Origin: Limonium bicolor
Lineage: Eukaryota > Streptophyta > Magnoliopsida > Caryophyllales > Plumbaginaceae
Length of the DNA stretch: 64,000 nucleotides
Direction: 5' to 3'
Assembly: GCA_023374045.1 (NCBI GenBank)
Contig: CM041783.1
Coordinates: forward strand, 93,965,298 to 94,029,297
In this document: piece by piece, positions 1 through 62,730 of the stretch
Position numbering within the stretch: position 1 is the first letter of the stretch
How the letters are laid out: every line of letters starts with the position of its first letter
Made by a program: the position numbers and the translations under genes
Notes under the pieces: model-generated
The model's input: only the letters and a program-made list of their open reading frames with translations
What the model was told of the DNA's origin: nothing
The model's database searches: none

Positions 1-2692
1 TTCATTCCAACCTTTCATGGACTAGGTGGAGTCCTCTCTTCATAGATATTCAAACTCTCTTCAAAGACCAAGGTAAAACAACTACATTAATATTTTTGAA
101 ACAATGTAAACCTAGGGTTTAAAATGAGAAGGAGCTTAAAGCTTGAATACTCATGATGTTGTTTGTATAATGTTTAGAACTTGACAAGGAATCAAATACA
201 TTACCGGTTTTATAAGGAAACAAGAAAGAAGTTTGTTTGGAAAAGAGGTAAATATACTAACCTAATGTTGTTTAATGCCTTAGGAGAAATGAGCTTATAA
301 TGCTTGTTAAAACTACCTAAAGAGCAAATGGTGAATGACTTAGTAAAGTGTTCTCAAGGAGACTAGTAAAAGAACATATATGTTGTTGTATGTATTTGCA
401 GGTCAAAGGCATATACATTGTGGAAATTCAGTGTTTATGATTTAAGCACTTTAAGGGCCTAAGAGCCATGCATTTAAGGGGCCTAAGTGCCAAGCAATTT
501 AAATTATGCATTATGTTGTAATGTAGTGTATTGTGAGTGAAGTTTTGTGTGTGAGAGTGTTTTTGGTGATTTAGGTGCTCTTGTGTTGTTAATGGAGGAA
601 ACAATGTGTTTTGGTTTAGTAATGTTCTAGGAGAACCCATGCCAAAATTTAGGAAATATCCAAGGAGTTCTAGGTGTTAGTGTAAGGCTTGGTGAACTAG
701 AAAATGTTAGAAAATGACTAAGTGTTGTACAAGAGAAGAAACTAGGTCTTAAGGTGTTCTAGGTAAACAAAAGGACTTAGACATCAACTAGGGTTTAGGT
801 TGGTAAGAAATGGTGCTTAAGAGATGATGTTAAGTTGAGGAGAAAGCATTTTGGGATAGTAGTTTCTTAGGTAAGAAACATCATTTAGAAACCGAATGTA
901 AAGTGTTATAAGTGTTAGTGAATTTATAAGGAAAAAAATGAGTAACAAGTGAAACATGGATTTAGGTGTTTAAGATGATATCTAGACATTAGAATATACC
1001 TAGGAACATTTGGTAAAGCTATACAATTAATGGAGGTGGAGAACTAAGGTAACAACATTTGAAAAATGACATTTTATCAATTCTGTAGGTTTGGTCCGGG
1101 ACCTAGGTGCTGGTTAAAGTCCCGGACCAGGGGTGTAAAATAGGCCGAGAGTCACATAGCAATGTGGTCCGGGACTTGGGTCTTGTACAAGGACCCGGAC
1201 CACCCCCTGAATTACCCCCGAGGGTTGAGTTAGCATATGGTCCGGGACCTAAGCTAGGGACCAAGTCCCGGACCACTATAAAACTTGGTTTTTAGGTATT
1301 TAAATGAAGTCTAATGATAGGGATAAGTTAGGAATGATTATAAGGTTACATAAGACATGTTAGGAGTGTTATAATGACATTTTAAAAGATGGGAAGTTAA
1401 AACAAAATGTGGAAATGTGATAACTAGAAATGTGAAGTAGTTAATGTGACAGTGGACTAGTGCATTAATTAACCGACGTTACTAAATGTGTTTAGGAATC
1501 TCTCAAGGTGGAAACCAGTCGAGGCAAGGACCAAGGTATGGTTTTCTTGCAGTCTGTTGTCTACCGGTTTACACCGGCTTGGGTGTTGTTTGTTTTTCTG
1601 TGTGTTACGACCTTATAAGATTAAGGCATGAAAAGATTTTACAGTTGTTATACGTTATGATGTTGTAATGTTGTGACTCTTTCCCCTTGGTTGTCTAACA
1701 AGACCTAAGTGTTTGCTTGTATGTGACCTAACAAAACATTGTGTGATCACTAACAAGTGCTAATCGGGGGGAGTGAGGAGTCCGGTATGTTCCGGCCACG
1801 CGTGTGAGGACGGGAGTCGATGTCATATCCGGTTTGGCTCTCTTGGTGTGTATATAGGTGGTATTCCAATTTGGTTTCTACCTTCCCTTAGCTTATCCAA
1901 AGCTAGTTACTGACTCACGTCGGGCCACAGGGGCATACGAATGTTATTTCGGTGTGCTTGGGATTACTATATCCGACACACCTTGGGTATAAGTTAACCG
2001 TTCGATATAACTGGACGGTAACGAGGTTGGTAACGAGCTTAGCATGAGATTGGCAATATTCTCTAGGCTCACATTGTATACTAACTATGGTGGAAGGTTC
2101 CTTGTGAGAACCGATTTTAATGGTGTTATGTATTGTTATGGTGCTGTGCAATTTCCCTTGCTATGTTATGGTGTATATATGTTGAATGTTTAAAATGAAT
2201 GCCATGTTATCATGACAATTGGTTGCGCGTATCCCGGTAGCCGATGGGCTGCGCGTTAACCATACCAGCAAAGGTTGCTGACCCCCTTGGGGGCTCCATA
2301 TTTTACTGCAGGATGAGGATCGAAGAAGCGAGGCTAGTGGCCTAGATCCTAGGTCGTTGATGTACTTTTGGCTATTTTGGTTGTTGAGCCCGGGATGCGC
2401 CTGTGCTCCCGAGGTATTACATTTTGGTAGCGTTTGTTAAACAGTGGTGGATGTTTACGGTTGGTAGGTGTGATGTAAATTAAATACTCGGTATTGTTGG
2501 TTATGTATATATGTGGATGTTAGGACCTATGCTCGGGAGTCTGATCATCAGACCGATACACTTGTATTTATTCTGCCTAGTTAACCACGTGGGTGGTTAA
2601 CGGCGTTGTAACACCACAGCGTTAGTTATTGTTTGGTTGGTTATTTCCGCTGCGATTTCGGTAGTTGGTAGGGGCGTTGTAGGGGTGTTACA
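1..2692 (+). mobile_element. Element I: right part of a plus-oriented giant LTR
   Basis: This segment is the 3' portion of an LTR that began before the window. It ends in AGGGGTGTTACA at 2692, the same terminus as the complete LTRs here. It holds, in order, a possible splice donor (CAAGGTAAAA near 70), an acceptor-like TTTGCAGGTC at 395, the conserved TTAAGGGCCTAAG block (about 440-510), a palindromic array (1092-1275) and the LTR tail, with GCTGACCCCCTTGGGGGC near 2277 and TTTCCGCTGC near 2645. No primer-binding site follows, so this is either a 3' LTR or a solo LTR. The 5 bases after it (CTTAT) would be one half of a target duplication whose partner is out of view. It appears to lie inside minus-oriented element H, next to a unit of H's own array. 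Confidence 0.8.
1092..1275. repeat. Palindromic array of LTR I, 3 units, 73-bp period
   Basis: Three imperfect palindromes start at 1092, 1165 and 1238, so both steps are exactly 73 bases. Each opens with TGGTCCGGGAC and closes with GTCCCGGACCA or a close variant, with about 35 bases of AT-richer spacer between units. The middle unit has extra pairing (ACTTGGGTC-TTGTA-CAAGGACCC). The short 62-codon reading frame across it is a by-product of high GC content. Confidence 0.85.
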
Positions 2693-4640
2693 CTTATTTT
2701 TGGGTTGGTCCGGGACTTCACACTGGACCTAAGTCCCGGACCAGCTACAGATTTCCTCCTTTTGTATGATTCTAAGTTTTGTTACACTTGTTCTCTTCTT
2801 CTATAAATCACCCAATCTTCACACATGATCTAAAACATATTCTAATACCAAAATAACATCATAAACTTGCCCAACTCCTTCTCTAACCTTATGACTCAAT
2901 TTCTTACATAATCTCTTAACACTTGTAATATTTTTCCTTAGGTTTTCTAAGTGGTGTTTCATACCTATCATAACCACAATGCCAAAATGTATCCTCACCA
3001 CTATAACATCATCTCTCAAGCATCTCTCACCATCTAAAATTCCTTTATGTAGTTGCTTGATGTTTCTTCTCAAGTTTGTTCCCTCTTCTTTAACACATTA
3101 TTTCCTCTTCTCCTAACAAGACTTACATATATCCTAAACACATTCCCAAACTGCCTTTGGTATATACCAAAACACTCTTTTGATTCCTAAATCTTCCTTG
3201 ATGATGCCTAAGTCATTCTAACTCACAAGAACACCTTAAACTCATTCTTTTTCCTTCGAGACAACCTCTAACTTCCTAGTGCTATCCTAGTCACGAAATC
3301 TCCTTAGAACATCTTAAACACTTAGGTTCTCCACTAAATTTTGCCATGGGTTCTCTAGTCTATTGTTACACCTAAACACTTGGTTTTTTTCACCATCAAA
3401 CAACCAAGATCACTCAGATTCTCATTACAACATCTTAACATACAATTTACACCAAAACTACACCACATCATCATATAGTGTATATACTTAAAATGCTTGG
3501 CACTTAGGCCCTGAAAAGACAATAATCTTAACCACTGAATTTCCACATATAGTTGCCTTTAATCTGCAAATACACACAACAAGGCTCCCATTGAAATAAA
3601 ATGCTTCTTGTAATTCATCTCAACATTGTTTGACTATCTCTTTTCTCATTGGCTCCTTAGTCACAAGTTCTCAACATAGTCATTGTTTCTCCTAGGTTAT
3701 ATATAGCCCTTTTCTAAACTCGTAAACACTAACTCATCACATATATATCCCATTCCCTTAACACAATAAAACACCTTAAGGTAAGTAATTTACCTTGTTT
3801 TTTCAAGCTTACAAACTTTCTTCCTTAGGTTTTTCCTTGCTCAATCTCGGTCACCACTTAAACTCTCTTGCCAATGTTCTAACCAATATCCAATGACTCC
3901 AATGAGTACTAGATGATACATTAACCCTAAGGAACAAACCCTAGGTTAAAAATGTGCTTTAAGGTATCAAGGTGATTGTTTTACCTTGGTTTCTCAAGAC
4001 AGGCTTGGATATGAAGCAAGAAGGACCTCCTTAATCCTTTGGAGAGTAGAAAACAAGCTAGAACAAGGCATAAACATGGAGTCCCATGAGTACAAATTTT
4101 CGATGGAAAGGAAGAAATTGATGGAAACCTAGATTTTCTTACATATTCTTTACTTTAAGAGAATGGAGAAGCTAATGAAGTCTCCAAGCTTGAGTTTCAT
4201 CCTCTAATGGCGATTTGCCTTGGCTCAAAAATGAGGCTCTTGATGTTTTGAAAAGATAGGAAGAAGGAGCTTGAGCTAACTAAGAGATATATGTGCTTGG
4301 TTTTGATTTTGGAGCTTAAATGAGCAAGATGTGGGCAAAAGAAGATGGAGCTAACATGGAGGTTGCTTCTTACGTGAGAGAGAAGAAAGACAGCATAAGC
4401 TTATTATTCTGCTTTTCAGAATTGAAAGAAAAGGAAATGGTAAGGTTCTTGGGGAAACAGAAAAATAAAGAAGCAAGAAGAACAATGCGAGGTTTCATTA
4501 ATCAGAGATACAAATTTTACAGAAGCTTGCACTATTTTATTCACTCTGATATGCTTCTCCTAATCTACTGTTCTGTATATATAAGGCTATTCTTCCAAAC
4601 AGACATCTAGTATAAGTCTGTAACAGCAGCGAAACAATTG
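2693..4640 (-). mobile_element. Element H: minus-oriented LTR remnant
   Basis: The order of landmarks matches the minus-oriented LARD LTR. There is a palindromic unit at 2706-2743 (TGGTCCGGGAC / GTCCCGGACCA), the conserved AGGCCC block with CACTGAATTTCC near 3500-3545, the acceptor-like CTGCAAATAC near 3563 (TTTGCAG on the minus strand), the donor-like TTACCTTGG near 3981, and a purine-rich stretch (CT-rich on the minus strand) at about 4250-4480. A minus-strand TATA-like motif (TTATATATAC) lies near 4574-4584. The left part of this LTR must lie beyond the inserted LTR I. Its promoter-side end (GGGGTATTTCA) is missing. The right limit is approximate. Confidence 0.65.
2706..2743. repeat. Single surviving palindromic unit of LTR H
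   Basis: The arms are TGGTCCGGGAC and GTCCCGGACCA around a 16-base centre, the same arm family as in LTR I. Any other units of H's array would lie left of the inserted LTR I and outside the window. Confidence 0.75.
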
Positions 4641-8318: not shown

Positions 8319-8937
8319 TGAAATACCCCAAACCTAAGTATGCTAAGTAAACATCAAATTATGATGTAGTAAGGCTAGAATATGCCTTAGAAAGACTGGT
8401 AGACAATTTAAACCAAGGAAAACGCAAGAAAGTGCCTTAAGGGCAATTTGGGCAAAAACGTGCTCTAAGCTTGGAGTGACTTTGATTAGCACCCAAATAC
8501 CATTATAAGACTTTAGTAATATGCTAATGGACATTTTAAATCAATTAGCAAAGAAAACCAAGCTCAAAAACAAGCTTAAACACAAAATGTGCTTTAAGAC
8601 TCCTTAAAGCACCTTTTTGAGAAATTGTCTTAGAATTGAGTTTTGAGTGGATAAATTTCCATCATTACTCTTTAATCAACATGTGTACTAATTAGTATCA
8701 CATTAGGAAGCCTAAATCAATGGGAAATCAAAAATTTCAGAAATATGTGCACTAATTTGTGAATAGTGCCAAATAGTGACTAGTTTAGTCTTTAATCAAC
8801 TTAGTTTAGTTAATTGGTCAATAAAGGCCAAACATGCCCTTATTTAACAAGGGGTCCGATTTTTGAGAGTGGTGAGTCAGCACATGAGTCATTCAATTAA
8901 AGAAAAGAAGAGGGAAATAAGTAAAGTTACTATTTGC

Positions 8938-8945
8938 TTTATAAG
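8938..8945 (+). promoter_or_regulatory. Probable LTR K promoter (TATA-like box)
   Basis: TTTATAAG stands about 620 bases inside the LTR and is followed by a long CT-rich leader (about 8968-9065). LTR F has TATA-like boxes at an equivalent place (48121-48161). If correct, U3 is short and roughly 4 kb of the LTR is transcribed as R-U5. The start site itself is not visible from sequence. Confidence 0.45.
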
Positions 8946-11049
8946 AACAAAATATCTCTTAAAAGCTACCTTTTCTTCTCCTCTCTCTTCATTTCTCTTC
9001 TTCCACGGTTTTCTTCATGCTCTTCATCCTCTCAAACTGAGAGAACAAGCTCCATTGTTGCCTCACCTTGCCTTGTCTACAACTCACTCATTTTAGCTCC
9101 AAATCAAAAACTAAACACATATTATTCTCAGTTAGCTCAAGCTCTAGCTTTCTATCTTTTCAAATCTTTCAAATCTTTCAAAGCTCAAGTTTGGTGCCAT
9201 GAGAAAACTCCATTGATGGAGGAAAATCAAGTTTGAAGAGCTCATTAGCTTCTCCATTCTCTTAAGGTAAAGAAAATGTAAGAAAAACCAAGTTTCCATC
9301 ACTTCCTTACATGGCCGAAAATTACTACTCATGGGGACTTGTTTTTATGTCTTGTTCTAGCTTGATTTATTCACCAAGGACTAGTGGAGGTCCTATTTCA
9401 TTCAATGCCAAGGTCTATCTTGAGACTTCAAAGGTAATCATCCACTTTTATGCCTTAGAACACATTTCTAACCTAGGTTTTCATTCCTTGAGGTTAGTGT
9501 ATTGTTTAGTACTCATATGAAGTACTTGAATATTGATTAGAACATTGGCAAGGGGAATTTAAGTGGTGGCTGATATTCATTAAAGAAGAAGGTCTAAGGA
9601 GGAAGATAAGATAAGCTTGAGAAAACAAGGTAAATTACTCACCTAATGGTGGTTAAGGGTTAAGGAATGAGTTTTAGATGAGTACCAATGTAGCCTAGGG
9701 CTGACATTAGGTAATGGGTTATATAACCTAGGAAAAAGAACTTAAATAAGCTTGTGAACTTGTGACTAAGGTGTCAATGGGAATGAGTTAGTAATATAAG
9801 TTTGAGATGGTTTTAAGAGAGCATTATAACTATTATGAGATTGATGGGTGTATTTGCAGGTTGAAAGCTTTTATATGTGGGAAATTCAGTGCTTAATTTT
9901 AAGTCATTTAAGGGCCTAAGAGCCATGTCATTTAAGAGCCTTGGTGCTATGCAATTTAAGATTATTGCAATGTAATGAGTTGTTGTGAATGAGTTGGTTT
10001 GGTGATGAGATGTGATGAGAAAGAACTTGATGTGTGTGAGATGGTTGAATGAGGAAAACAATGTGTGTGGGCATGATAAGATACTAGAGAAGCTATGGCG
10101 AAATTTGAGTAGAAAATAAGTGTTTAGGTGATGATGGTGAGCTAATATGACCTAGGATTTACTAGGAGTCATAAAAAGGAATTTGAGTGGAAATGAGTTA
10201 ACTAAGGAGTTCTTGAGGTTTAGAATGACCTAGAGATGTCTAGGAGGAATTAGAGAATTGGTGAGTGTATTAAACACACCAAAACCAAGATATGAGGAAT
10301 GTAAGACTTGTGCATAAGTTTGAAGGAGAAAGTGTATAATGCTTAATGTGATTTAGGTATGAACTAAGAGTATAAAAATGAGAGTTTCGGGAAGTTTGTG
10401 TAAGAGGTGGTGATGCTAGTGGTGGACTAGTAAGGTCTAGTTAAATGGTAATGTGGGGACTTGGGAGATGAAAGTGAAAATCGTAGGAGAATGTTGTAAG
10501 TCGTCAAGGAAAATAACTGGAAATGTATAAGGGTTTATGATCATGAGAATGGTGGGTAAGTTGCATAAAAGAAGTGGAAAAGTCTAAGGACGGTGTTGCA
10601 TGGGTAAGGTAAGTGAAGAACAAGGTCAAGGTGATAAGTGGTGAAAAGAAATGTATGGGTAAGCTGAAGAGTTTAAGAGTGGTGAGTAACCAAAGGAAAG
10701 GAGAGGAATTTGTGCATGGATATGCAAGGTGACTTGAGGAAGTCTTGGTAAATGAATTGAAGATGGAAGATGATGTTTATGAAGTGCTCAAACTGTTAAG
10801 GAGGGAACACTTGGGTTGGTTGAAGTTTTGGAAAGGTTACAAGTTGGAAATGTAAGGAATCATATGACAAGTGTTAGGAGTGTTTGTAAGAATTTAGTAA
10901 ATGTTTGAGAAGATCTTTGGAAGTTGTTTTGGAGAGTTTGGTGGAAGTTCTAAGGTGAGTTTAAGTGCCTAAATGGTATTAGGACACATGGGGGAACTTG
11001 TGGAGAAGTTTGGAGTCAAATGGGAATTTAGAAACAAGGTTCTGGAGCC

Positions 11050-11375
11050 GACCGACCTTGGGACCGGACCTGCAAGGTCGGTCGAGCTCAGTTTACACTA
11101 CCGGAAGGGGGTTTATTGAACCGACCGAACTTGGGGACCGGACTTACAAGTTCGGTCGGGCTTGTATTTTGTGTACGAATTGAGTCTCTGGAATCAACCG
11201 AACATGGGACCGAACTTGGCAAGTTCGGTCGGGCTTAAAAATCCCACGGGGAAACTCTCGGGAATGGACCGACCTTGGGACCGGACTTGCAAGGTCGGTC
11301 GGGGTGAAATTTTCAAACAGTAATGAGTTCTGGAATGGACCGACCTTGGGTAAGGTCGGTCGGTAAGGTCGGTCG
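11050..11375. repeat. Palindromic array of LTR K, 5 units
   Basis: Units start near 11050, 11123, 11197, 11257 and 11338. Arms are of two kinds: GACCGACCTTG with CAAGGTCGGTC (units 1, 4 and 5) and CCGAACTTG or CCGAACATG with CAAGTTCGG (units 2 and 3). The inner bases often add a GGACCGGAC motif. Spacers of about 35 bases share TCTGGAAT-like sequence. Confidence 0.85.
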
Positions 11376-11380
11376 ACCCT

Positions 11381-11400
11381 AAAAAAAAAAAAAAAAAAAA
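11381..11400 (+). repeat. A20 homopolymer next to the K array
   Basis: Twenty consecutive A residues follow the last palindrome of K. The other arrays here are not followed by such a run. It may be a slippage product, or less likely a trace of an integrated poly(A) end. Confidence 0.9.
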
Positions 11401-12485
11401 GAAACCCTAAGGAAGTTTAGTGGTATTAATGGTACCCCTTTAAGAGGGCATTGATGATTAGAGGTGTAAAGACCTAAGAGATTAAGATAAGTATAAACTC
11501 AAAAGTTTAAGGTTAAGTTGTAAGATTAAGTTGTAAGACTTAAGAGGTGTTAGGTTGGAGTCATTAAGGGTTAAGTAAGTTAAGTAAGATAAGTAAGTTG
11601 AATTGAGTTAAGTGATTAACAACCTAAAACTGAATGAATGTTTTAGGACTTGGGAATTTGGACTCCGGAAGAGAGTAAGCAACCGAACGACCAACGGTGA
11701 ACAGTACAGTTCTTCTTGTGACCTGCTTGCTAACGAGGTGTCCCTCGGCTTGTGTGCTATTTGTTTTTGTGTGCTCACTAAACAAGATAAAGCATGCAAC
11801 CGGAATATTATATTTATTGTATTGTTGTGTGATGTTTGAAAACTAACACAACATACCGTGAGAACTTACTAACCAACGTTTAGTAAGGAAATGAGTGAGA
11901 CTAAGGAACGCTCCCTAATATGGGACGATATAAACCGAAAGAGGTTAACCAACAAACATGGTCTTGAGACTACTACTAACTGGAACTTGAGTGAGGAAAC
12001 CCGGGACTGATCTCCGGTCATGCATGCTAAGGAAAGGGGGTCGGTATCTATAGCAGATTCGACTTCCGATTAAGGACTAGTCCTCGGACTAGTAGCCTTG
12101 GGTCGGTTGGCCGGCTCAGCTACATTGGACATCCAGTCCAAGGTAGGTGGCTTTAAGATGGCGTGGGGGGATCAAGCCTACATCCCCAACAATTTAAGAA
12201 TGTTGTTTATTGCCGGTAAGTGTCCTGCTGCTGGCTAGGGTTAACCAAGCCCTACAAAAGTAAACAACGAACTAAGGGCTAACCTGTTCCCAATGAGAGA
12301 ACGGTTGGCATACATAAGGTAAGGTTAAGATAAGTTGCAACCATTCCTCTTTAAAGGATGGTTTGTATTATTAAGACTAAGATAAGCTACATCCACTCCT
12401 TATTAAAGGGTGGTTGTTTCTAAGATTAAGATAATATTAAGATTGAGGTGAGATAAGGATGGACTAAGATTAAGAGGAAACATAA

Positions 12486-12490
12486 CTTAA
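12486..12490. repeat. Left target-site duplication of the LARD (CTTAA)
   Basis: CTTAA directly precedes TGTAACACCCC and recurs directly after the far terminus at 26850-26854. Confidence 0.93.
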
Positions 12491-15400
12491 TGTAACACCC
12501 CAACCACCACCGTACACTTAACATCAAACTGCAGCGGAAATCTCAACTCATCACATTACTTAATTCAATGGTGTTACACGCCGTTAACCACCCACGTGGC
12601 TAACAAGGCTAATACACATACATTTGTATCGGTCTGATGGACTAGATTCCCGAGAAACTACACAATACAATCCTCATTCCGTTTTCAACATTTATTTTAT
12701 ACATACATTCCCACTGTACCGAGTATTACAAACTACTGCCGATAACAACTTCGGTCTTACTACGCCTATCATACTCACGCCATTTAGATGGCTACCCATG
12801 TACAACATCTGCCCCGTCCTACTCTCGAACGCTTCCAGCTCCTTGTACCTGAAATAGAAAAGAAGAGAAAGGGTGGCCCCCAAGGGGCTCAGCACCTTTG
12901 CTGGTATGGTAATCCCGCAGCCCACATGCTACCGGGCCACGCACAACTAATTGTCGTCTTAGCATGCAGTTGATTATATTTAAATCATGCATACAAGCCA
13001 TAGACATACAACACATAACATTTCGCCTCAATGGGCTCAACCTATAACCAAAACATCCACACTTAACCAACCATCCAATGATTCCTTAAACCCTAGAGTG
13101 GCTCTCCTCTAAACGGAGCTACTTCCTTAACGAACGACGTGTACCCGTCAATCGGGTTATCCTTAAACGCCTGTTGTCACAACTTGGGATTCATTTCCAT
13201 GATCCACACACTCCATAACCTACAACATATCTCATTCCTCACATAACAAAACATAACAAACCTTTCTTGTTTCGATGTACACACGATAACATCACAATCA
13301 TTTTAAACATCCAATATATATATATACCATAGCATAGCAAGGGAATTTGCATAGCACCGTAACATTACATAACACCATAAAATCGGTTCTCACAAGGAAC
13401 CTTCCACCATAGTTAGTATGCCAGTGAGCCTAGAGATTATTACCAATCCCATGTTAAGCTCGTTACCAACCTCGTTACCGTCCGGTTATATAGAACGGTT
13501 AACTTATACCCAAGGTGTGTCGGATATAGTAATCCCAAGCACACCGAAATAACATACGTATGCCCCTGTGGCCCGACGTGAGTCAGTAACTAGCTTTGGA
13601 TAAGCTAAGGGAAGGTAGAAACCAAATTGGAATACCACCTATACATACACCAAGAGAGCCGAACCGGATAAGATAACGACTCCCGTCCATCACACGCGTG
13701 GCCGGAACAACCGGACTCCTCACCCCCCATTAGTACATATACACTCAATAATAAGTAGTTAGAGACCCATTATGGAGCCCTACCAATCCACACACCATAC
13801 GGTATCATAACCGAGTTAGGCACACAAGGGAGGTTCACACACTTGCTCACAACAACAATGTCCAATTAACTCACACATAGCCGTGGTTAGCACGTTCCCA
13901 AGGTTTGGGCCGTCAACTCCGAATACCGATCACTCATGTGTTCATAGTTTTGGTTAGCTAAGGTTTAACACATATTTGAGGTTAAATGGTATCGGAGGCC
14001 AAATTCGCCACATAAATGAATTACTATAAACTCATTACATGTTTTAATCTTACAAGGTGGCAAACACTCAATAAAACATATTGGCATACAAGCCGTGTAA
14101 TCCGGTAGGACACAGGTTGCAAGAAAACCATACCTGTCACCGGAGTCCACTTTACCACGTCCACTTATGTTCCTCGAGCAATTCTCGAACAACTGTTAAC
14201 ATCACATGTGTTTTATTAACATTGGGGTAACATGTTTGTTTAAAGTCTAACGCTTATAACTTTTCCTGTTAACTTAGTTAAATAACTTTACATCTTAACT
14301 TGTTTTACTTTCACCTTTTATTACAACCTTCCACCCACTTAATTGTCATTAAAACTCACCTAACAAGTCCTTAACAACCTTATAACATCATTACCTTTCA
14401 ATCCCCATCATTACACATCATTTCTATAACCTTAAACAACATTTTTAGTCCGACCGACCTTACCGACCGAACTTGTCCAAGTTCGGTCCATTCCAGAACA
14501 TATTTCCGTCAAAATTTTCTACTCCGACCGACCTTGTAAGTTCGGTCGCATGTTCGGTCTATTCCCGAGAGTTTCTTCCCTTTGAAAATTCAAGCCCGAC
14601 CGAACTTGCCAAGTCCGGTCCCATGTTCGGTCGGTTCCAGAAACTTAATCCATACACAAAATACAAGCCCGACCGACCTTGCAAGTCCGGTCCCCAAGGT
14701 CGGTCCATTCCAGAAGCCAATTCTCGCAGGGTAAACTGGGCTCGACCGAACTTGCAAGTTCGGTCGCAAGTTCGGTCTGCCCCAGACCCTTGTTTTCCTT
14801 TTCACATTCAACTCCAAACTTCACCCCATATAACCCCTAGCACCCCCTAACCTCATTTGGGCACTTCAAACACACCTTTAGCCATGTGCTAAACTCTTTA
14901 AATCACTCACCAAAACCATCTTATCATTCACAAATTCCTTACAAGATTCCTAGCACTTGGGATGTTTTCTCCTTAAGATTTCTAAGTGGTAATTCACCAA
15001 TAATGACCACTATACCAAGGTGTTTCCTCTACACCTTAACATCATCTCTCAACTTCTTTCCTTACTAACCAAATCTTCTCTTTCACAACTCCTTAAATTC
15101 CTTTCTTTCAAAACCTTACCTAAACATCATTCTCTCCTTATTCATCAACATGACCTAAACCTTAACACACCTTCTCCAAGACTTTAATATCTCCTAAAAA
15201 AACACTCATTGGATTTCTAGAACTTCCAAGACAATGCCTATATCCTTATAGCACCTAAGAACACCTTAATGCATGTGTTCTCCCTTAGTGAAGCATGTGT
15301 CCATTCCTAACAATTCCTAGTTCACCCAAGTTCATTTAAGCACTTAGAATTCCTTATACATTTTACAAATTTCGCCATGGGTTCTCTTAGCACATCATCA

Positions 15401-17183
15401 TTCCAAAACTCATAGTTTTCACCATTAAGCACTCAAGAGCACCTAAATCCATCAAGACATTATCACTCACAAAATTTCACCAACTTTACACTACATCACA
15501 ATATAGTGCATAACTAAACTTGCTTGGCACTTAGGCCCTTAAATTGCATAATCCTTAAACACTGAATTTCCCACATAAATAATGCCTTTGACCTGCAAAT
15601 ACATACACCAATACATATGTTCTTTTACTAGTCTCCTTGAGAACCTTTACTAGGTCATTCACCATTTGCTCTTTAGGTAGTTTTAACAAGCATTATAAGC
15701 TTGTTCCTCCTAAGGCATTAACCACATTGAGATAGCTTGTTTACCTCTTTTCCTCACAAATTTCTTTCTTGTTTCCTTGTAAAACCGGTAAGGCATTTGG
15801 TTCCTTGCCAACAACTAAACAATATACCAACATTGAAATGAGTATATAAGCATTATGCTTCATCTCATTATAAACCCTAGTTACATATATTATCTTAAGG
15901 TATTAACATGATTGTTTTACCTTGGAATGGAAGAGAGCTTGAATATATCAAGAGGACTCCTCCTAGCCCTTGGAAGATTCAAATGAAGCTAAACAAGCAA
16001 GGTAAAGACACCATGGTGAGGTTAATTTTCGGCCATGTACTAAAAAGAGAGGAAATGGAGTTTTCTTTGGTTTTTCCTTACCTTGAAGCAAAGATGATCA
16101 ACAAGGCATAAAAACATTAGCTCAAGCCCCTTCCATGGAAGTTCTCCTTGGCACCAAAATGGTGGTTTTGAGGATTTGAAAGGACAAGGTTGTAGAGCTT
16201 GCTCCAACTAAGAGAACGGTAGTCTCGGAATTAAATTCGGAGCATGGAGTCATAAGTTACAAGTGAGGAAGGATGAGAATGGCATGGTTCTGTTTGGAAA
16301 CCGATGGAGAGAGGAGGAAGAAGAAGACCACCGTGGGAAATGAAGAAAGGAATGAGAGAATGAGGAAATGAGTTTGCTTTGTTAGTTTTAGATATTTAAG
16401 TAAAGTAAATAGTGTTTTACTTTATCAATTTCTATCTTATAAATTTAACAAAGGGACTCATTCCCTTATGAGGAAACCGGCCCCAAATAGTAGCAAGGGG
16501 GTATTTTAGACTTTATTAGTCATTGTCTCACTTATAACATTATATGTTACAAACTAGTTATAAAATCACTATTCACCAAAAACAAGGCACATAGAAGTGA
16601 AATTTTTGATTTCCCATTGATATAGCCACCCAAATGTGATACTATATAGTACACATATTAATTAAAGAGATGATGGACATTTAGCCATTCAAAACTCATT
16701 TACAAGACAATTTTTCAAAAACGTGCTTTAAGACTTCTTAAAGCACATTTTGTGTTTTAACTTGTTTTCAAGCTTGGTTTTCTTTGGTAATTGATTTAAT
16801 ATGTTCATTAACATATAAATGAGGCATAGGTATGACCATTAGGTCTTATACACATTTATCCCAAGCTTAGAGCACATTTTTGCTCATATTGACTTTAAGG
16901 TATTACCTTGTGTTTTGTTTGGTTTCATTGTCTACCAAAGTTTCCTAAGGACTTAATTAGCCTTATAAAATCATAATTAAATGTTATTAAGTCTTGGTAG
17001 GCTCTTTGGGTCCTAACCAAGTTCACTCATAGCTTAGAGCATGTTTTTGCTCAAACTGTGTCTTAGTGCTTTATTGCACTTTACTATGGTTTAAATGGTT
17101 CATTCATGTTTCTAAGACACTTTTTAGCCTTTAAATACCATAGTTAAACATTTACACAACATACCAAGGTTTGGGGTATTTCA
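12491..17183 (-). repeat. LARD 3' LTR (left copy)
   Basis: Read on the minus strand it starts TGAAATACCCCAAACC (17183 inward) and ends GGGGTGTTACA (12491). The small frames inside it recur in the right copy with small indels, as expected for duplicated non-coding DNA. Internal landmarks are the array at 14449-14777, acceptor- and donor-like sites near 15594 and 15921, and a TATA-like TTAAATATCT on the minus strand near 16390-16399. Confidence 0.93.
14449..14777. repeat. Palindromic array, left LARD LTR, 5 units
   Basis: Units start near 14449, 14524, 14595, 14668 and 14741, giving steps of 75, 71, 73 and 73. Arms are GACCGACCTTG or GACCGAACTTG pairing with CAAGGTCGGTC or CAAGTTCGGTC. Some units mix the two kinds and have a third half-arm. 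Spacers contain ATTCCAGAA or similar. The 125-codon frame over this region reads out the repeat and is not a gene. Confidence 0.85.
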
Positions 17184-22153: not shown

Positions 22154-22166
22154 CGCTCTGATACCA
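22154..22166 (-). promoter_or_regulatory. Primer-binding site of the LARD (initiator tRNA-Met type)
   Basis: The minus strand reads TGGTATCAGAGCG, five bases inside the 5' LTR. TGGTATCAGAGC is the usual plant complement of the 3' end of initiator tRNA-Met. The site is the left arm of a hairpin: ATCAGAGCG, AAGTAT, CGCTCTGAT. Confidence 0.92.
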
Positions 22167-22171: not shown

Positions 22172-25100
22172 TGTAACACCCCAACCACCACCGTACACTT
22201 AACATCAAACTGCAGCGGAAATCTCAACTCATCACATTACTTAATTCAATGGTGTTACACGCCGTTAACCACCCACGTGGCTAACAAGGCTAATACATAC
22301 ATTTGTATCGGTCTGATGGACTAGATTCCCGAGAAACTACACAATACAATCCTCATTCCGTTTTCAACATTTATTTTATACATACATTCCCACTGTACCG
22401 AGTATTACAAACTACTGCCGATAACAACTTCGGTCTTACTACGCCTATCATACTCACGCCATTTAGATGGCTACCCATGTACAACATCTGCCCCGTCCTA
22501 CTCTCGAACGGCTTCCAGCTCCTTGTACCTGAAATAGAAAAGAAGAGAAAGGGTGGCCCCCAAGGGGCTCAGCACCTTTGCTGGTATGGTAATCCCGCAG
22601 CCCACATGCTACCGGGCCACGCACAACTAATTGTCGTCTTAGCATGCAGTTGATTATATTTAAATCATGCATACAAGCCATAGACATACAACACATAACA
22701 TTTCGCCTCAATGGGCTCAACCTATAACCAAAACATCCACACTTAACCAACCATCCAATGATTCCTTAAACCCTAGAGTGGCTCTCCTCTAAACGGAGCT
22801 ACTTCCTTAACGAACGACGTGTACCCGTCAATCGGGTTATCCTTAAACGCCTCTTGTCACAACTTGGGATTCATTTCCATGATCCACACACTCCATAACC
22901 TACAACATATCTCATTCCTCACATAACAAAACATAACAAACCTTTCTTGTTTCGATGTACACACGATAGCATCACAATCATTTTAAACATCCAATATATA
23001 TATATATACCATAGCATAGCAAGGGAATTTGCATAGCACCGTAACATTACATAACACCATAAAATCGGTTCTCACAAGGAACCTTCCACCATAGTTAGTA
23101 TGCCAGTGAGCCTAGAGATTATTACCAATCCCATGTTAAGCTCGTTACCAACCTCGTTACCGTCCGGTTATATAGAACGGTTAACTTATACCCAAGGTGT
23201 GTCGGATATAGTAATCCCAAGCACACCGAAATAACATACGTATGCCCTGTGGCCCGACGTGAGTCAGTAACTAGCTTTGGATAAGCTAAGGGAAGGTAGA
23301 AACCAAATTGGAATACCACCTATACATACACCAAGAGAGCCGAACCGGATATGACATCGACTCCCGTCCATCACACGCGTGGCCGGAACAACCGGACTCC
23401 TCACCCCCCATTAGTACATATACACTCAATAATAAGTAGTTAGAGACCCATTATGGAGCCCTACCACATCCACACACCATACGGTATCATAACCGAGTTA
23501 GGCACACAAGGGAGGTTCACACACTTGCTCACAACAACAATGTCCAATTAACTCACACATAGCCGTGGTTAGCACGTTCCCAAGGTTTGGGCCGTCAACT
23601 CCGAATACCGATCACTCATGTGTTCTTAGTTTTGGTTAGCTAAGGTTTAACACATATTTGAGGTTAAATGGTATCGGAGGCCAAATTCGCCACATAAATG
23701 AATTACTATAAACTCATTACATGTTTTAATCTTACAAGGTGGCAAACACTCAATAAAACATATTGGCATACAAGCCGGTGTAATCCGGTAGGACACAGGT
23801 TGCAAGAAAACCATACCTGTCACCGGAGTCCACTTTACCACGTCCACTTATGTTCCTCGAGCAATTCTCGAACAACTGTTAACATCACATGTGTTTTTAT
23901 TAACATTGGGGTAACCTGTTTGTTTAAAGTCTAACGCTTATAACTTTTCCCGTTAACTTAGTTAAATAACTTTACATCTTAACTTGTTTTACTTTCACCT
24001 TTTATTACAACCTTCCACCCACTTAATTGTCATTAAAACTCACCTAACAAGTCCTTAACAACCTTATAACATCATTACCTTTCAATCCCCATCATTACAC
24101 ATCATTTCTATAACCTTAAACAACATTTTTAGTCCGACCGACCTTACCGACCGAACTTGTCCAAGTTCGGTCCATTCCAGAACATATTTCCGTCAAAATT
24201 TTCTACTCCGACCGACCTTGTAAGTTCGGTCGCATGTTCGGTCTATTCCCGAGAGTTTCTTCCCTTTGAAAATTCAAGCCCGACCGAACTTGCCAAGTCC
24301 GGTCCCATGTTCGGTCGGTTCCAGAAACTTAATCCATACACAAAATACAAGCCCGACCGACCTTGCAAGTCCGGTCCCCAAGGTCGGTCCATTCCAGAAG
24401 CCAATTCTCGCAGGGTAAACTGGGCTCGACCGAACTTGCAAGTTCGGTCGCAAGTTCGGTCTGCCCCAGACCCTTGTTTTCCTTTTCACATTCAACTCCA
24501 AACTTCACCCCATATAACCTAGCACCCCCTAACCTCATTTGGGCACTTCAAACACACCTTTAGCCATGTGCTAAACTCTTTAAATCACTCACCAAAACCA
24601 TCTTATCATTCACAAATTCCTTACAAGATTCCTAGCACTTGGGATGTTTTCTCCTTAAGATTTCTAAGTGGTAATTCACCAATAATGACCACTATACCAA
24701 GGGTTTCCTCTACACCTTAACATCATCTCTCAACTTCTTTCCTTACTAACCAAATCTTCTCCACAACTCCTTAAATCCTTTCTCAAAACCTTACCTAAAC
24801 ATCATTCTCTCCTTATTCATCAACATGACCTAAACCTTAAACACCTTCTCCAAGACTTTAATATCTCCTAAAAAAACACTCATTGGATTTCTAGAACTTC
24901 CAAGACAATGCCTATATCCTTATAGCACCTAAGAACACCTTAATGCATGTGTTCTCCCTTAGTGAAGCATGTGTCCATTCCTAACAATTCCTAGTTCACC
25001 CAAGTTCATTTAAGCACTTAGAATTCCTTATACATTTTACAAATTTCGCCATGGGTTCTCTTAGCACATCATCATTCCAAAACTCATAGTTTTCACCATT

Positions 25101-26849
25101 AAGCACTCAAGAGCACCTAAATCCATCAAGAACATTATCACTCACAAAATTTCACCAATTACACTACATCACAATATAGTGCATAACTAAACTTGCTTGG
25201 CACTTAGGCCCTTAAATTGCATAATCCTTAAACACTGAATTTCCCACATAAATAATGCCTTTGACCTGCAAATACATACACCATACATATGTTCTTTTAC
25301 TAGTCTCCTTGAGAACACTTTACTAGGTCATTCACCATTTGCTCTTTAGGTAGTTTTAACAAGCATTATAAGCTTGTTCCTCCTAAGGCATTAAACCACA
25401 TTGAGATAGCTTGTTTACCTCTTTTCCTCACAAATTTCTTTCTTGTTTCCTTGTAAAACCGGTAAGGCATTTGGTTCCTTGCCAACAACTAAACAATATA
25501 CCAACATTGAAATGAGTATATAAGCATTATGCTTCATCTCATTATAAACCCTAGTTACATATATTATCTTAAGGTATTAACATGATTGTTTTACCTTGGA
25601 ATGGAAAGAGAGCTTGAATATATATCAAGAGAGGACTCCTCCTAGCCCTGGAAGATTCAAATGAAGCTAAACAAGCAAGGTAAAGACACCATGGTGAGGT
25701 TAATTTTCGGCCATGTACTAAAAAGAGAGGAAATGGAGTTTTCTTTGGTTTTTCCTTACCTTGAAGCAAAGATGATCAACAAGGCATAAAAATTAGCTCA
25801 AGCCCCTTCCATGGAAGTTCTCCTTGGCACCAAAATGGTGGTTTTGAGGATTTGAAAGGACAAGGTTGTAGAGCTTGCTCCAACTAAGAGAACGGTAGTC
25901 TCGGAATTAAATTCGGAGCATGGAGTCATAAGTTACAAGTGAGGAAGGATGAGAATGGCATGGTTCTGTTTGGAAACCGATGGAGAGGGAGGAAGAAGAA
26001 GACCACCGTGGGAAATGAAGAAGGAATGAGAGAATGAGGAAATGAGTTTGCTTTGTTAGTTTTAGATATTTAAGTAAAGTAAATAGTGTTTTACTTTATC
26101 AATTTCTATCTTATAAATTTAACAAAGGGATGACTCATTCCTTATGAGGAAACCGGCCCCAAATAGTAGCAAGGGGGTATTTTACTTTATTAGTCAATTG
26201 TCTCACTTATAACATTATATGTTACAAACTAGTTATAAAATCACTATTCACCAAAAACAAGGCACATAGAAGTGAAATTTTTGATTTCCCATTGATATAG
26301 CCACCCAAATGTGATACTATATAGTACACATATTAATTAAAGAGTAATGATGGACATTTAGCCATTCAAACTCATTTACAAGACAATTTTTCAAAAACGT
26401 GCTTTAAGACTCTTAAAGCACATTTTGTTTTAACTTGTTTTCAAGCTTGGTTTTCTTTGGTAATTGATTTAATATGTTCATTAACATAAATGAGGCATAG
26501 GTATGACCATTAGGTCTTATACACATTTATCCCAAGCTTAGAGCACATTTTTGCTCATATTGACTTTAAGGTATTACCTTGTGTTTTGTTTGGTTTCATT
26601 GTCTACCAAGTTTCCTAAGGACTTAATTAGCCTTATAAAATCATAATTAAATTTTATTAAGTCTTGGTAGGCTCTTGGGGTCCTAACCAAGTTCACTCAT
26701 AGCTAGAGCATGTTTTTGCTCAAACTGTGTCTTAGTGCTTTTATTGCACTTTACTATGGTTTTAAATGGTTCATCATGTTCTAAGACCTTTTTAGCCTTT
26801 AAATACAATAGGTTACATTGACCAAACATACCAAGGTTGGGGTATTTCA
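22172..26849 (-). repeat. LARD 5' LTR (right copy)
   Basis: It matches the left copy from TGTAACACCCC at 22172 to GGGGTATTTCA at 26849. Many differences from the left copy are 1-4 base indels, such as CGAACGG versus CGAACG near 22509. Divergence is greatest in the last 100 bases before 26849. Confidence 0.93.
24132..24461. repeat. Palindromic array, right LARD LTR, 5 units
   Basis: This is the second copy of the array at 14449-14777 and looks identical to it in unit number, order of arm types and spacers. The array was therefore copied intact in the last round of reverse transcription. Confidence 0.85.
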
Positions 26850-48161: not shown

Positions 48162-49788
48162 GTGGTCCGGTTTTATTATGAGAGCAGCCCCTCACACACA
48201 CACAAGTAAATAAAGAAAGAAAAAGTAAGGAAAGAGGTAAAAAGTAAAAAAAGGCAAAAATCACCTCTCTCCTCTCATTTCCCTCTTCTCTCTCTTCTTT
48301 CTTTCTTCCCCACCATCGCTTTCTTCTTCCTCCCTCTGCTGGAGCGATTTTTGAGCTCTTCCATGGCAGCTCACCTTCTCAAGCTTGCCCAAGCTTTATT
48401 AAAGCTCCAAATCAAAAACAAATTACATATTTGAACTCCCCTCAACAATCTCTACAATTCTATCTTTTCAAAATTCGAAAGGAAGAACTTCATCTCCATG
48501 GGTTTTCCACATTCAAAGAGAAAATGGTACCAAAGTAAATCTTGGAGTCTCCTCTCTCCATTAAGGTAAAAATATACACGAAAAACTCATGTTTTCTCCA
48601 CCTTTTATAACCAATTTTATGCTCTCACAATGCTATATTTCTCTCTCTCTTTTGAGCATAACTCCAACATTGCAATGGTGGTGGAATCACCTTCTCAAAC
48701 CAAGGGCTAAAACCCCACCTAAAACACTCCAAAGGTAAACCCTAGAATTTGTGATTTGAACATTTCAATGGATTAGTATAAATCTAAGGGTTAGTATTTT
48801 AATTACACTTGTTTATGTGTGCTTTGGGTGATGGGAATGGAGTTTGCAACTCCATTCCCCATGTAGCCGATTTGTGCAAGAAAGAGAGAAGGAGAGGAAA
48901 TGGGAAAAGAAAAGAAGAAATAAGAGCTTAAGGTAAGAGCTTCTCCTTAACGTTAAATTTAAATGCATTGGTGTAATGGGAATGGATAAACTACTTAAAG
49001 AAACCCAAATATTGTATTAGTAACGTAGTTTGTGGAAGTTTGAGTATTTATGAGTTTGTACTTGGATTGTAGGCCCTAGAGCCAAATAAATTGTGTATGT
49101 GTATTAGTATGGTGGATTGAGGAAGTAATGATGTATTGGTATTGTAATTGAGGAAGTATTGGTGTATTGAGATTTGGTATGTGTGCTGGTAGAACCCTCG
49201 TGGTTTGGCAAGAATAGGGATGAAATTGATGAGAAAGGAGATGTGTGGATAAGTAAGAAAAGTAGGTGGACTATGGCGAAATTTAGTAGAAATTGTGCAT
49301 TAAGAATGACTTGGTGAATGGGAGAACCAAGGTGTGTATTGGGATTTAGTAGAGATGATTTAGTAACTAAGGAGTAGTAGTGGTGGTAAGAAAATGAAAT
49401 GATATAAGATCTGTAGCAAGGGATTTTGAATGTGTTGGAGAAGCAAGGAAGAATTAATGTGTAAGACTTGGTAAAATGAGTATGGTAGTGGGTAAGACTT
49501 GGGTTGAGTATAATGCAAATGAGGCAATGAAAGAACCATAGCATTAGTGGGAAGAAGAGAGGAAAAATCTGTAGCATATGTGGAAGAAGGAAAAACTGTA
49601 ACAGAGGGAAAAATTAATAGTGGAGTGTATTATGTAACAAATTTGTGTAGAGATGGATTAGGTTAGTTTTGATTGCCTAATTAGGGTCAAAACACCCTAG
49701 ATTATCTGTAGGAATATTGGGGAAGAGATTGATAGAAGTTTGGAGTTGAAACATAATAAAAAACATATATATTTTACAAAACTGCAAC

Positions 49789-50043
49789 TTGTCCGGGTTT
49801 GTAAACAAGTACACAAACCCGGACCAGTCAAAAAACACGGCAGAATGAATTTCAGAATGGATGGTCTGGGTTTGCAAACCAACCTCTAAACCCGGACCAC
49901 CCCAAAATTTCACCCAAGATATTTACACAGGCATGGTCCGGGTTTGTAAACCCTTCCCTAAACCCGGACCACACACAAACTTCACCCGTAGCTGAATTCC
50001 AGTATTGGTTCGGGTTTGTATCCCTGGACACAAATCCGGACCA
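49789..50043. repeat. Palindromic array of LTR F, 4 units
   Basis: Units start near 49789, 49862, 49934 and 50006, steps of 73, 72 and 72. Arms are TGGTCCGGGTTTG with CAAACCCGGACCA or single-base variants. One unit has GGTCTGGG against CCCGGACC and one has GGTTCGGG against ATCCGGACC, so G-T wobble pairs would replace two pairs. Confidence 0.87.
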
Positions 50044-51136: not shown

Positions 51137-51141
51137 AAAAG
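51137..51141. repeat. Left flank of element D (AAAAG), half of a target duplication
   Basis: AAAAG precedes TGTAACACCCC. The partner lies outside the window. Confidence 0.5.
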
Positions 51142-59345: not shown

Positions 59346-61304
59346 TGTAACACCCCATCCACAACAAACACATAATAACAATCTGCACAGCGGAAACTCA
59401 ACTCATCACATTACTTATTCCAATGGTGTTACACGCCGTTAACACCTACGTGGCTAACAAGGCAATATATGTACATTTGTATCGGTCTGATGGACTAGAT
59501 TCTTCCGAGCAAACTACACATTACAATCCTCGTTCCATCTTCAACATTTATTATATACATACACTCCCCCTGTACCGAGTATTTACAAACTACCGCCGAA
59601 AACAACTTCGGTCTTACTACGCCTATCATACTCACGCCATTTAAATGGCTACCCATGTATAAACATCTGCCCCGTCCTACTCTCGAACGGTTTCCAGCTC
59701 CTTGTACCTGAAATAGAAAAGGAGAGAAAGGGTGGCCCCCAAGGGGCTCAGCACCTTTGCTGGTATGGTAATCCCGCAGCCCACATGCTACCGGGCCACG
59801 CACAACTAATTGTCGTCTTAGCATGCAGTTGTTTATATTTAAATCATGCATACATGCCATATCCATACCACACATAATATCTCGCCTCAATGGGCTCTAT
59901 CTATAACCAAAACATCCACACTTAACCAACCATCCAATGATTCCTTAAACCCTAGAGTGGCTCTCCTCTAAAATGGAGCTACTTCCTTAACGAACGGGCA
60001 TGTACCCATTAATCGGGTTATCCTCAAATGCCTCTTGTCGCAAGCTGGGATTCATTTCCATGATCCACAATATAACTCATTCCACAAATAACAAAACATA
60101 ACAAACCTTTCTTGCTTCGATGTACACATGACAACGTTGCATTCATTTAAAACATCCAATATATATATATATTTACCAAAGCATAGCAAGGGAATTTGCA
60201 TAGCATTATAACATTACATACACCATAAAATCGGTTCTCACAAGGAACCTTCCACCATAGTTAGTATACCATGTGAGCCTAGGGATTTTTGCCAACCCCA
60301 TGTTAAGCTCGTTACCATCCTCGTTACCGTCCGGTTATATAGAACGGTTAACTTATACCCAAGGTGTGTCGGATATAGTAATCCCAAGCACACCGAAATA
60401 ACATAACCATTAGTATGCCCCCGTGGCCCGACGTGAGTCAGTAATATAGCTTTGGTTAAGCTAAAGGGGAAAGTTGGAAACCCAATGGGAAAACAACCAT
60501 AACATACACAGAGGGTCGAACCTATAATGGCACGACCCCCATCCTCACACGCGTGGCCGGAACAGACCGGACTCCTCTCCCCCCATTAGTACATATACAC
60601 TTAATAATAAGTAGTTAGGGATCCATTATGGAGCCTACCACATCCACACACCATACGGTATCATAACCGAGTTAAGCACACAAGGGAGGTTCACACACTT
60701 GCATACAACAACCATATCCAACTAACTCACACATAGCCGTGGTTAGAACGTTCCCAGGGTTTGGGTCGTTAACTCCGAATACCGATCACTCATGTGTTCC
60801 TAGATTTGGTTAGCTAAGGTTTAACACATATTTGAGGTTAAATGGTATCGGAGGCCAATTCGCCACATAAATGAATTACTATAAACTCATTACATGTTTT
60901 AATCTTACAAGGTGGCAAACACTCAGGAAAACATATTGGCATACAAGCCGGTGTAATCCGTTAGGACACAGGTTGCAAGAAAACCATACCTGTCACCGGG
61001 GTCCACTTTACCACGTCCTCTTATGTTCCTCGAGTGATTCTCGAACAACTGTTAACATCACATGTGTTTTTATTAACATCGGGGTTTGCTTGATTATTTA
61101 GTGTCCAAAGCTTATAATTTTTCCCCGTTAACTTAATTACATAACTTCACTTTTTAACTTGTTTTGCCCTCACATTTTAATACAACTTTTCACCCACCTA
61201 ATTGCCATTTAAACTCACCTAACATGTCCTTAACAACCTTATGGCATCATTACCTATCAATCCCCATCATCTCATATCATTTCATAACCTTAAACCATGT
61301 TTTT

Positions 61305-61566
61305 GGTCCGACCGACCCACCGTCCGACCCACAGCTGGGTCGGTCCATTACAGAACCCTTTTACTCCCTTATAAACATGCCCGTCCGACCCACGTCCGAC
61401 TCACTCGACTGGGTCGGTCCATGTGCGAACATTTTCTTCCTTTGAAACTTGACCGACCGACCCATGTCCGACCCACCCTTTTGGGTCGGACCATTACCGA
61501 ACACATTCCTAACATCTAACAGAGGCTCGACCGACCCAAAACTGGGTCGGACCCCTGGGTCGGTCG
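61305..61566. repeat. Palindromic array of LTR E, 4 units
   Basis: Units start near 61305, 61383, 61451 and 61527. Arms are GACCGACCCA, or GTCCGACCCA, with TGGGTCGGTC or TGGGTCGGAC. The closely related LARD LTR has GACCGACCTTG arms at the same place, so the arm core changed from CCTTG to CCCA on both sides of each unit. Confidence 0.85.
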
Positions 61567-62394
61567 CCCTCTAAACTTACCCAAACTTTGCCAAATCTTC
61601 ACCAAACTTCTCCTAAGGCCTCTTAATGTGTTCTAACATCATTTGGCACTTCAAACACACCCTTAAGGTATTCTTAAACACTCACAAAACTATTTTTCCT
61701 AATTCCTTAAACCTTTACTTATATCTCCACAAAATTCCTAACACTTACAATGTTTTCTCCTTATGATTTCTAGGTGGCATTTCACCTATAATGACCACAA
61801 TACCAAGGTGCTTCCTCTACACCTTATCATCATCTCTCAACTTCTTTTCTTACTAACTAAATCTCCTTTTCACAACTTCTTAAAACTCCTTACTCAAAAC
61901 CTTACCTCAACCTCATTTATTCCTTGAATATCAACATTACCTAAACCTTAAACAAACTCCTCCAAGACTTAAATACATCTTAAGAACACCCATAGATTTC
62001 TAAAACTTCCAAGATAATGGCTAAATCCTTGCATCACTCTTAATCACTTTAATACATGTTTCCCTCTCAAGTAAACATTCATTCACCTTTAATCCTTCCT
62101 AGTTCACCAAAACTCACTTACAACACTTAGAACTTCTTACACATTTTCCCAAATTTGGCCATAGCTTCTCTAGTATATACCCACATCCAAACACTTAGGT
62201 TTTTACCTTAATTCATTCAAGAACACCAAAAATCCATCAACACACTTTATACACAAACTCCACACATTAAGCACTACATCACAATATAGTGCATAACTTA
62301 AATTGCTTGGCACTTAGGCCCTTAAATGCATGGCTCTTAGGCCCTTAAATTGCATAAACCTTAAACACTGAATTTCCCACATAATAATGCCTTT

Positions 62395-62730
62395 GACCTG
62401 CAAATACACCCAACAATTCATATGCCCTTAATAAACTCCTTGAGAGCATTTTTACTAGCTCATTCACCATTGGCTCCTTAGATCATTTTAATAAGCAATA
62501 TAAGCTCATTTCTCCTAAGGCATTAAACCACACTGAGATAGTATGTTTACCTCTTTTCCACTCAAACTTCTTTCTTGTTTCCTTACAAAACCGGTAGGGT
62601 ACTTGATTCCTTGTCAAGTTCTATACATTGTACAAACAACATAATGAGTATTCAAGCTTTAAGCTTCATCTCATTGTAAACCCTAGATTTACATTGTTTC
62701 AAAAACATTAATGTACTTGTTTTACCTTGA
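62395..62730 (-). other. Intron-like segment in the LTR E leader
   Basis: On the minus strand a donor-like CAAGGTAAAAC (near 62730) is followed about 325 bases later by TATTTGCAGGTCAAAGGC (ending near 62388). Equivalent pairs are at about 72-401 in I, 9430-9859 in K and 15594-15921 in the left LARD LTR. Splicing is inferred only from these motifs. Confidence 0.4.

Follow-up and report, generated by a model that had tools for sequence, protein, structure and literature searches.

Palindromic repeats within long terminal repeats (LTRs) are known from Sireviruses, which belong to the Ty1/copia retrotransposons. Their LTRs carry clusters of palindromic repeated motifs (RMs) with a CGG-CCG core and otherwise element-specific letters, and these clusters were called Sirevirus-specific (Bousios et al. 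2010, PMC2829016, Table 3). The cis-regulatory regions of several elements are also summarised as arrays of repeats, palindromic in some cases (PMC10760457), and for the Sirevirus palindrome clusters the same source cites strong predicted secondary structure and a role in defining the LTR cis-regulatory region (Bousios et al. 2016). Here we describe GC-rich inverted repeats, arranged in arrays, from LTRs of a very abundant retrotransposon group of Limonium bicolor. The window analysed is a 64,000-nucleotide stretch (contig CM041783.1 of assembly GCA_023374045.1, positions 93,965,298 to 94,029,297), in which seven LTR copies carry such repeats, all at one homologous LTR position. Pairing between the arms holds as their letters vary. 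We propose with moderate confidence, from sequence comparison, that the array is a modular cis-acting LTR region whose arms template each other during replication, which is swapped between elements, and in which the dyad and its spacing are selected.

The arrays share several features with the Sirevirus RM clusters as presented in the section on RMs of PMC2829016: both are GC-rich LTR palindromes with element-specific arms and a conserved CGG-CCG core, and several RM consensus motifs (CGGTCGACCG, GTCGGACGTCCGAC) resemble the arms found here. Sirevirus RM clusters form CpG islands; here the arrays of K, LARD and E are CpG-rich and those of I and F are not. The initial annotation knew of no described LTR feature of this kind, but the RM clusters are a precedent. 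No period of about 72 bp is given in that section, whereas the arrays here have a period of 72-73 bp and often a third arm in the loop. The hosts also differ. Array-bearing relatives L038 and L030 have reverse transcriptase before RNase H/integrase (Pfam RVP_2, RVT_1, RT_RNaseH and Integrase_H2C2), and array-bearing L044 has a gag with a Ty3_capsid match; by these signatures the coding relatives carry Ty3/gypsy pol, and, unlike in the Sirevirus description, arrays are exchanged between backbones. The window element with two array-bearing LTRs, a large retrotransposon derivative (LARD), is itself non-coding, and its Ty3/gypsy link runs through its relatives, the LARD LTR being related to that of L038. 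Palindromes with the CGG-CCG core and element-specific letters were thus found, but in a superfamily that, judged by relatives, is not Ty1/copia, and for that reason we do not class the arrays as Sirevirus RMs. By analogy, they look like RMs and may work like them. At the level of titles and abstract beginnings, the literature yielded no tandem LTR palindrome array outside Sireviruses, and the titles and abstracts on LARDs name no such array.

The initial annotation had reported six arrays with a period of about 73 bp from the window. All six exist as described, and one further LTR holds a remnant. On the forward strand, the array of LTR K (11048..11375) has five units, starting near 11048, 11121, 11194, 11265 and 11336, with A-type arms GACCGACCTTG / GACCGAACTTG; that of LTR I (1092..1275) has three units with C-type arms (TGGTCCGGGAC...) at steps of 73 and 73; and that of LTR F (49788..50043) has four D-type units (TGGTCCGGGTTTG) at steps of 73, 72 and 72. 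On the reverse strand lie the two arrays of the LARD, equal in sequence and each of five A-type units (3' LTR, 14449..14785; 5' LTR, 24133..24469), the array of LTR E (61308..61566) with four B-type units (GACCGACCCA / GTCCGACCCA) and the remnant in LTR H (2706..2743), a single C-type unit adjoining the end of LTR I. The array is located upstream of a AATGATGGGGATT-like sequence in the LARD, E, F and I LTRs; K has diverged there. Steps from left arm to left arm measured 71-74 bp in 16 of 16 window intervals, the two LARD LTRs being counted once, which bears out the period. Two further LTR-looking stretches, judged by their ends (27025-32394 and 51142-55846), contained no array.

Six arrays, with LARD counted once and H represented by its one remaining unit, were folded as RNA, and each had a better folding energy than 100 out of 100 dinucleotide shuffles on both strands, with z-scores from -4.0 to -10.2. 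A folding scan of the whole window (852 windows) gave a mean z of -3.98 in the 25 array windows against -1.07 in the other 827, although the strongest structures of the window were not the arrays but repeats at 45.8-47.1 kb. Searches for known features gave no matches: an Rfam scan of the window had none at gathering score, a protein search with the open reading frame (ORF) crossing the array returned three candidates, none significant, and viral contigs searched with the arm pattern gave none.

In each unit of about 72 bp, a loop separates the left arm from the right arm, and a spacer of about 35 bp follows. Many units of types A and B are three-armed, a third copy of the arm lying in the loop, so that an arm may pair with either of two others. 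Four arm types were distinguished in the window, namely A, GACCG[A/G][A/C]CTTG (K, LARD); B, G[A/T]CCGACCCA (E); C, TGGTCCGGGACTT (I, H); and D, TGGTCCGGGTTTG (F). A fifth, X (TGTCCGAACTT), occurs with irregular steps in another LTR family (L030:4213-4598, L030:9120-9505 and L050:5894-6214), whose sole detectable similarity to the array LTRs of the window is the array itself. We compared ten stem positions in 69 oriented units of 18 arrays, leaving aside the second LTRs of LARD and L039 as well as the X-type arrays, to which no sense strand could be assigned. Watson-Crick pairs filled 645 of 690 stem cells, an upper estimate as the right arm was picked as best match, and the rest were 14 G.U, 10 A.C and 21 other combinations. 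The CCG of the CCG...CGG core was unchanged, letter by letter, in 66, 68 and 67 of the 69 units across types A-D, and six other stem positions showed two or three different Watson-Crick pairs.

The pairing was counted genome-wide at one toggling stem position of A-type units, using GGAATGG in the spacer as anchor and allowing 2-20 bases between the arms. C-G was found in 32,977 units and A-T in 9,463, as compared to 135 with C.T and 202 with A.G; the reversed-pattern control gave 0 in each class. A matched pair was thus present in 42,440 of 42,777 anchored units, or 99.2% against 65.1% expected if the arms were independent (phi 0.977), and mismatched intermediates amounted to 337 of 42,777. 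Some of the A.G and C.T units hold a third arm that does pair. Both pair states occur within one array, A-T at C1:5518358 and 5518431 and C-G at C1:5518502 and 5518572. Together with the step lengths, these counts uphold the earlier claim that pairing and spacing are kept as the letters change.

Maintained pairing would also be expected if the hairpins were selected in the sense transcript, as part of an LTR leader serving packaging, dimerisation, export or translation control, the compensation then being a product of RNA selection. At the neighbouring stem position, read on the anchored sense strand, the G.U type (G in the left arm, T in the right) occurred in 1,451 units and its mirror, A.C, in 74, beside 9,463 A-T and 7,120 G-C; tolerance of wobble but not of A.C is a prediction of RNA pairing. 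The folding far above shuffles agrees with it too, and the array lies past a TATA-like, CT-rich stretch identified by eye and is possibly transcribed. However, the 1,451 units may represent one amplified lineage, or the neighbouring direct copy GACCGGACTTG may have converted the left arm, and over the 69 units G.U (14) was hardly more frequent than A.C (10). In recent copies of the K array A.C even prevailed, 13 against 5 G.U, and by z the antisense strand folded better than the sense strand in four of six arrays (I, H, K and LARD). A stem alone, moreover, leaves the near-invariant CCG core unexplained. We regard selection on the RNA as possible but rather doubtful, and prefer a cis-acting dyad chiefly because that core is not needed for pairing.

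Recent copies of the K array, taken as part of its 40 best genome matches (29 rows, merged to 21 distinct copies), were used to follow change after insertion. Stem differences were one-sided in 18 of 18 cases and compensated in none. Transitions at CpG sites numbered 19 in 1,218 cells as compared to 16 in 2,856 cells for other C/G sites, about 2.8 times faster, and CpG in the resident K copies is therefore not protected from decay. The arrays of K, LARD and E nevertheless have a CpG observed/expected ratio of 1.13-1.24, as compared to 0.28-0.52 for the remainder of their LTRs. Since the resident copies show no sign of repair, any correction of the arms must occur in the replicating lineage, and the retention of CpG in the arms suggests upkeep in an active lineage. 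The retention of CCG/CGG likewise suggests selection on the dyad besides copying.

The uncompensated decay of recent copies would also suit a neutral origin, in which unequal exchange built the tandem repeat, and template switching and conversion keep the arms complementary without any function; loops of both orientations and homogenised arms are the mutational products to be expected from it. This account has difficulty with the core, which is near-invariant over the four arm types counted while the LTRs of K, LARD and E are depleted of CpG outside the array, and with the similar array of the X-type family, which is like the window LTRs in the array only. The step length may also count against it. 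In the wider sample of arrays, 42 of 51 steps were 71-74 bp long (median 72), and the outlying steps were four of 70, three of 82-84 (the last step of the B arrays of L044, L045 and L052), one of 59 and one of 146, the last spanning a unit missed by the search motif. When steps were set against 73-bp segments of LTR flank, the share of segments with an indel drift of at most 2 bp varied with gap penalties, from 0.18 to 0.59 for K-LARD and from 0.67 to 0.82 for E-LARD, so that our claim on spacing is confined to the distribution of steps. On balance we consider a purely neutral origin unlikely.

The orientation of the loops bears on how the arms may be copied. The unit GGAATGGACCGGACTTG[CGACCGACCTTG]CAAGTCCGGTC, with its loop in the rarer orientation, occurs in 67 exact copies genome-wide. 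The loop CAAGGTCGGTCG, the exact reverse complement of CGACCGACCTTG, stands between the same arms, GACCGGACTTG and CAAGTCCGGTC, in 49 of about 100 units among the matches listed. Within the window, the middle arm of E has the left orientation in unit 1 and the right orientation in units 2-4 (by eye), and in units 2-3 it points the opposite way to that in units 3-4 of LARD and K, the counterparts being suggested by the spacers, weakly for K. Loops in both orientations would fit template switching between inverted repeats. Homogenisation of arms and inversion of the spacer between them are given as products of such switching (PMC8604942), which can also yield compensatory changes (PMC8794818), and the arrays show patterns of this sort. 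As described in these sources, the process is known from coding DNA of S. cerevisiae and from RNA genes, whereas here it would be needed in a transposing lineage, since the recent copies are without compensation.

Arm types do not follow the LTR backbones. In 14 of 18 arrays the nearest neighbour by spacer had the same arm type (none of 5000 permutations, with a mean of 3.99, reached 14), as compared to 7 of 18 for the nearest neighbour by 1-kb upstream flank (mean 4.05, fraction 0.133) and 5 of 17 by downstream flank (mean 3.80, fraction 0.353). Since arm type tracks the array spacers and not the LTR flanks, arrays have changed backbones. Grouped by best match to a window LTR, backbones like that of LARD bear arrays of types A, B and C, those like F types A, B, C and D, and those like K types A, C and D. 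L038 and L044 illustrate the exchange. Their coding regions (AlkB-type ORF, protease and reverse transcriptase) are 97.1% identical over 3,437 bp, and the two elements are 88.6% identical over 2,170 bp starting just downstream of the array and 77.9% over 1,958 bp upstream of it. Across the arrays, of which one is A-type and the other B-type, no alignment of at least 60 bp was obtained, and old divergence as the source of the apparent exchange was thereby ruled out for this pair. Between K and LARD, unit-by-unit orthology is kept in the spacers (mean 0.76, the best of 24 pairings) but absent from hairpins 1-4 (0.891 against 0.882; 14 of 24 pairings were equal or better, the true one included); some appeared when unit 5 was added (14 of 120). 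The initial annotation had read the change of arms from element to element as drift of the sequence. Letters do differ by arm type, but, as far as sequence comparison goes, the change is largely exchange of arrays. Drift in place as the main cause was ruled out by the link of arm type to spacers and by the one-sided changes of recent copies. The copying mechanism acting on structure that it had also considered gains from these results, since copying is indicated both by loops of either orientation and by the exchange of arrays, and would account for much of the change in letters under constant pairing. Derivation of the C/D spacers from inverted A/B spacers was not supported: of the reverse-complement matches, 2 of 11 and 0 of 5 scored above the 95th percentile of shuffled sequences.

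Sharp differences in arms between similar backbones would also be expected if the array were mainly a source of, or decoy for, small RNAs that the host derives from hairpins, the arms turning over to evade silencing. Such an evasion has been argued for in maize Sireviruses, where an excess of small RNAs on palindromic motif clusters is cited (PMC10760457). This would account for turnover but not for the retained core. At 10-13 bp and with short loops, the stems are, we presume, small for Dicer-like processing, and such a role seems improbable to us. Arm types also cut across backbones both in elements without long ORFs (LARD, L039) and in coding elements (L038, L044), A arms being common to LARD and coding L038. 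On that ground, the arms might give the retrotransposon RNA an identity code that can be exchanged, with like arms pairing between molecules for dimerisation or packaging. If so, the non-coding LARD would be carried by any coding element of the same arm type, arrays would travel as cassettes and an array swap would be a switch of partner; we think this a long shot.

In the explanation that we favour, a modular cis-acting array, the arms would template each other when the active lineage replicates, most likely through hairpin-favoured template switches in reverse transcription. Both arms could then change in one event and the loop could flip. Strand transfer between co-packaged RNAs would swap arrays between elements, and selection in the active lineage would maintain the CCG/CGG dyad and its spacing since the array would act as a cis element, most likely by offering a dimeric DNA-binding protein a row of sites, as has been proposed for the Sirevirus RM boxes. 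Several observations weigh against this explanation. Each of the two loop forms is identical to a common arm sequence (left arm CGACCGACCTTG, right arm CAAGGTCGGTCG), and replacement by a neighbouring arm could stand in for a flip, which tempers our confidence in the explanation. The genome counts are counts of copies, not of independent events, and only a few double changes may lie behind the pair states. Cognate arms in the window arrays pair no better than arms shuffled within the array (fractions 0.30 to 1.00 over six groupings), and the window by itself therefore shows no covariation at the level of units. The I and F arrays, of C and D type, are not CpG-rich (0.53 and 0.64 against 0.63 and 0.56 elsewhere in the LTR). 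The flank test, with 7 of 18 against 4, leaves room for a weak association of flank and arm type. Finally, the TATA-like, CT-rich stretch precedes the array by about 1.6 kb, whereas Sirevirus RMs lie upstream of a conserved TATA box. The initial annotation had itself named two outcomes that would speak against its proposal, covariation not exceeding phylogenetic expectation and widely scattered spacing; neither was found, though with copies as the units counted the phylogenetic expectation is not formally excluded.

The array matters as a paired structure present in tens of thousands of copies in one genome, its letters varying and its pairing holding, in which the origin of compensatory change, by stepwise selection or by one-event copying between arms, becomes countable. 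The idea of palindromic cis regions in LTRs, put forward for Sireviruses, would also come to include elements whose pol is of the Ty3/gypsy kind. The suggested cassette-like passage of a cis region between backbones is relevant to the way in which a non-coding element finds a coding partner and to the turnover of LTR regulation. As to abundance, arrays were present in 12 of 24 sampled 10-kb stretches of the 2.92-Gb genome, placed at round-number positions (20 on C1 and C2, four on other contigs). One exact A-type unit pattern had 32,977 genome matches against 0 for its reversed control, and a 26-base flank motif of the LARD/E backbone had 20,353 (up to 3 mismatches) against 4. L043 and L047 have GC-rich stems, some arms with CCG, but no regular step and no homology to the LTR set, and were not counted as arrays.

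The array-bearing LTRs run TGAAATACCCC...GGGGTGTTACA and reach 4.7 kb. The LARD, on the reverse strand, sits inside LTR K (8319..12490, forward strand, up to the insertion), with the 5-bp repeat CTTAA on both sides. Its 3' LTR (12491..17183; about 4.69 kb, TGAAATACCCC...GGGGTGTTACA in sense) and 5' LTR (22172..26849; 4.68 kb) are 98.4% identical, and a primer-binding site, TGGTATCAGAGC, lies just inside the 5' LTR (22155..22166, reverse strand); we take it to match tRNA-iMet. No ORF of at least 220 aa was found in the window, and the longest stop-to-stop ORF between the LARD LTRs has 131 aa. The element thus has the two long LTRs, tRNA primer-binding site and non-coding interior of LARDs, in which such an interior lies between LTRs of more than 4 kb. 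LTR E (59346..63997, reverse strand; 4.65 kb) combines a LARD-like backbone with a B-type array, and LTR F extends from 47639 to 51141 on the forward strand, up to the next element. The LTRs are mosaic: a patch of LTR I (1768-2214) is 92% identical to the LARD LTR, most other blocks being well below.

About 1.1 kb from the LTR start, past the CT-rich stretch, LARD and E have a splice-donor-like AAGGTAAG, with near forms in K, H and F, and given this sequence the array might sit in a leader intron. The motif TTCTGGAA stands directly before the left arm in 19 of 44 A/B spacers (0.04 expected from shuffles, the spacers being related and not independent) as compared to 0 of 25 C/D spacers, for example at 11328-11335 (forward strand) and 14708-14715 (reverse strand) of the window. 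It fits TTCnnGAA, which we take to be a heat-shock-element-like core. Directly before the protease, L038 has a 262-aa ORF (581-1369, forward strand) with a 2OG-FeII_Oxy_2 (AlkB-type) domain (E 5.9e-43), pieces of which occur in L044; an N6-methyladenosine (m6A) demethylase domain has been published in orchid Ty3/gypsy elements (PMC9289625).

Elsewhere in the window, the stretch 45896-47108 consists of 59- and 122-bp tandem repeats with long palindromes such as CCTATTTCGGCGGTTCCT/AGGAACCGCCGAAATAGG, presumably CACTA-like. A small element resembling a terminal-repeat retrotransposon in miniature (TRIM) was seen at 44094-44604, with two identical LTR-like repeats of about 194 bp (44094-44287 and 44411-44604), ends TGTAATACCC...GGGGTGTTACA and TGGTATCAGAG after the first repeat.
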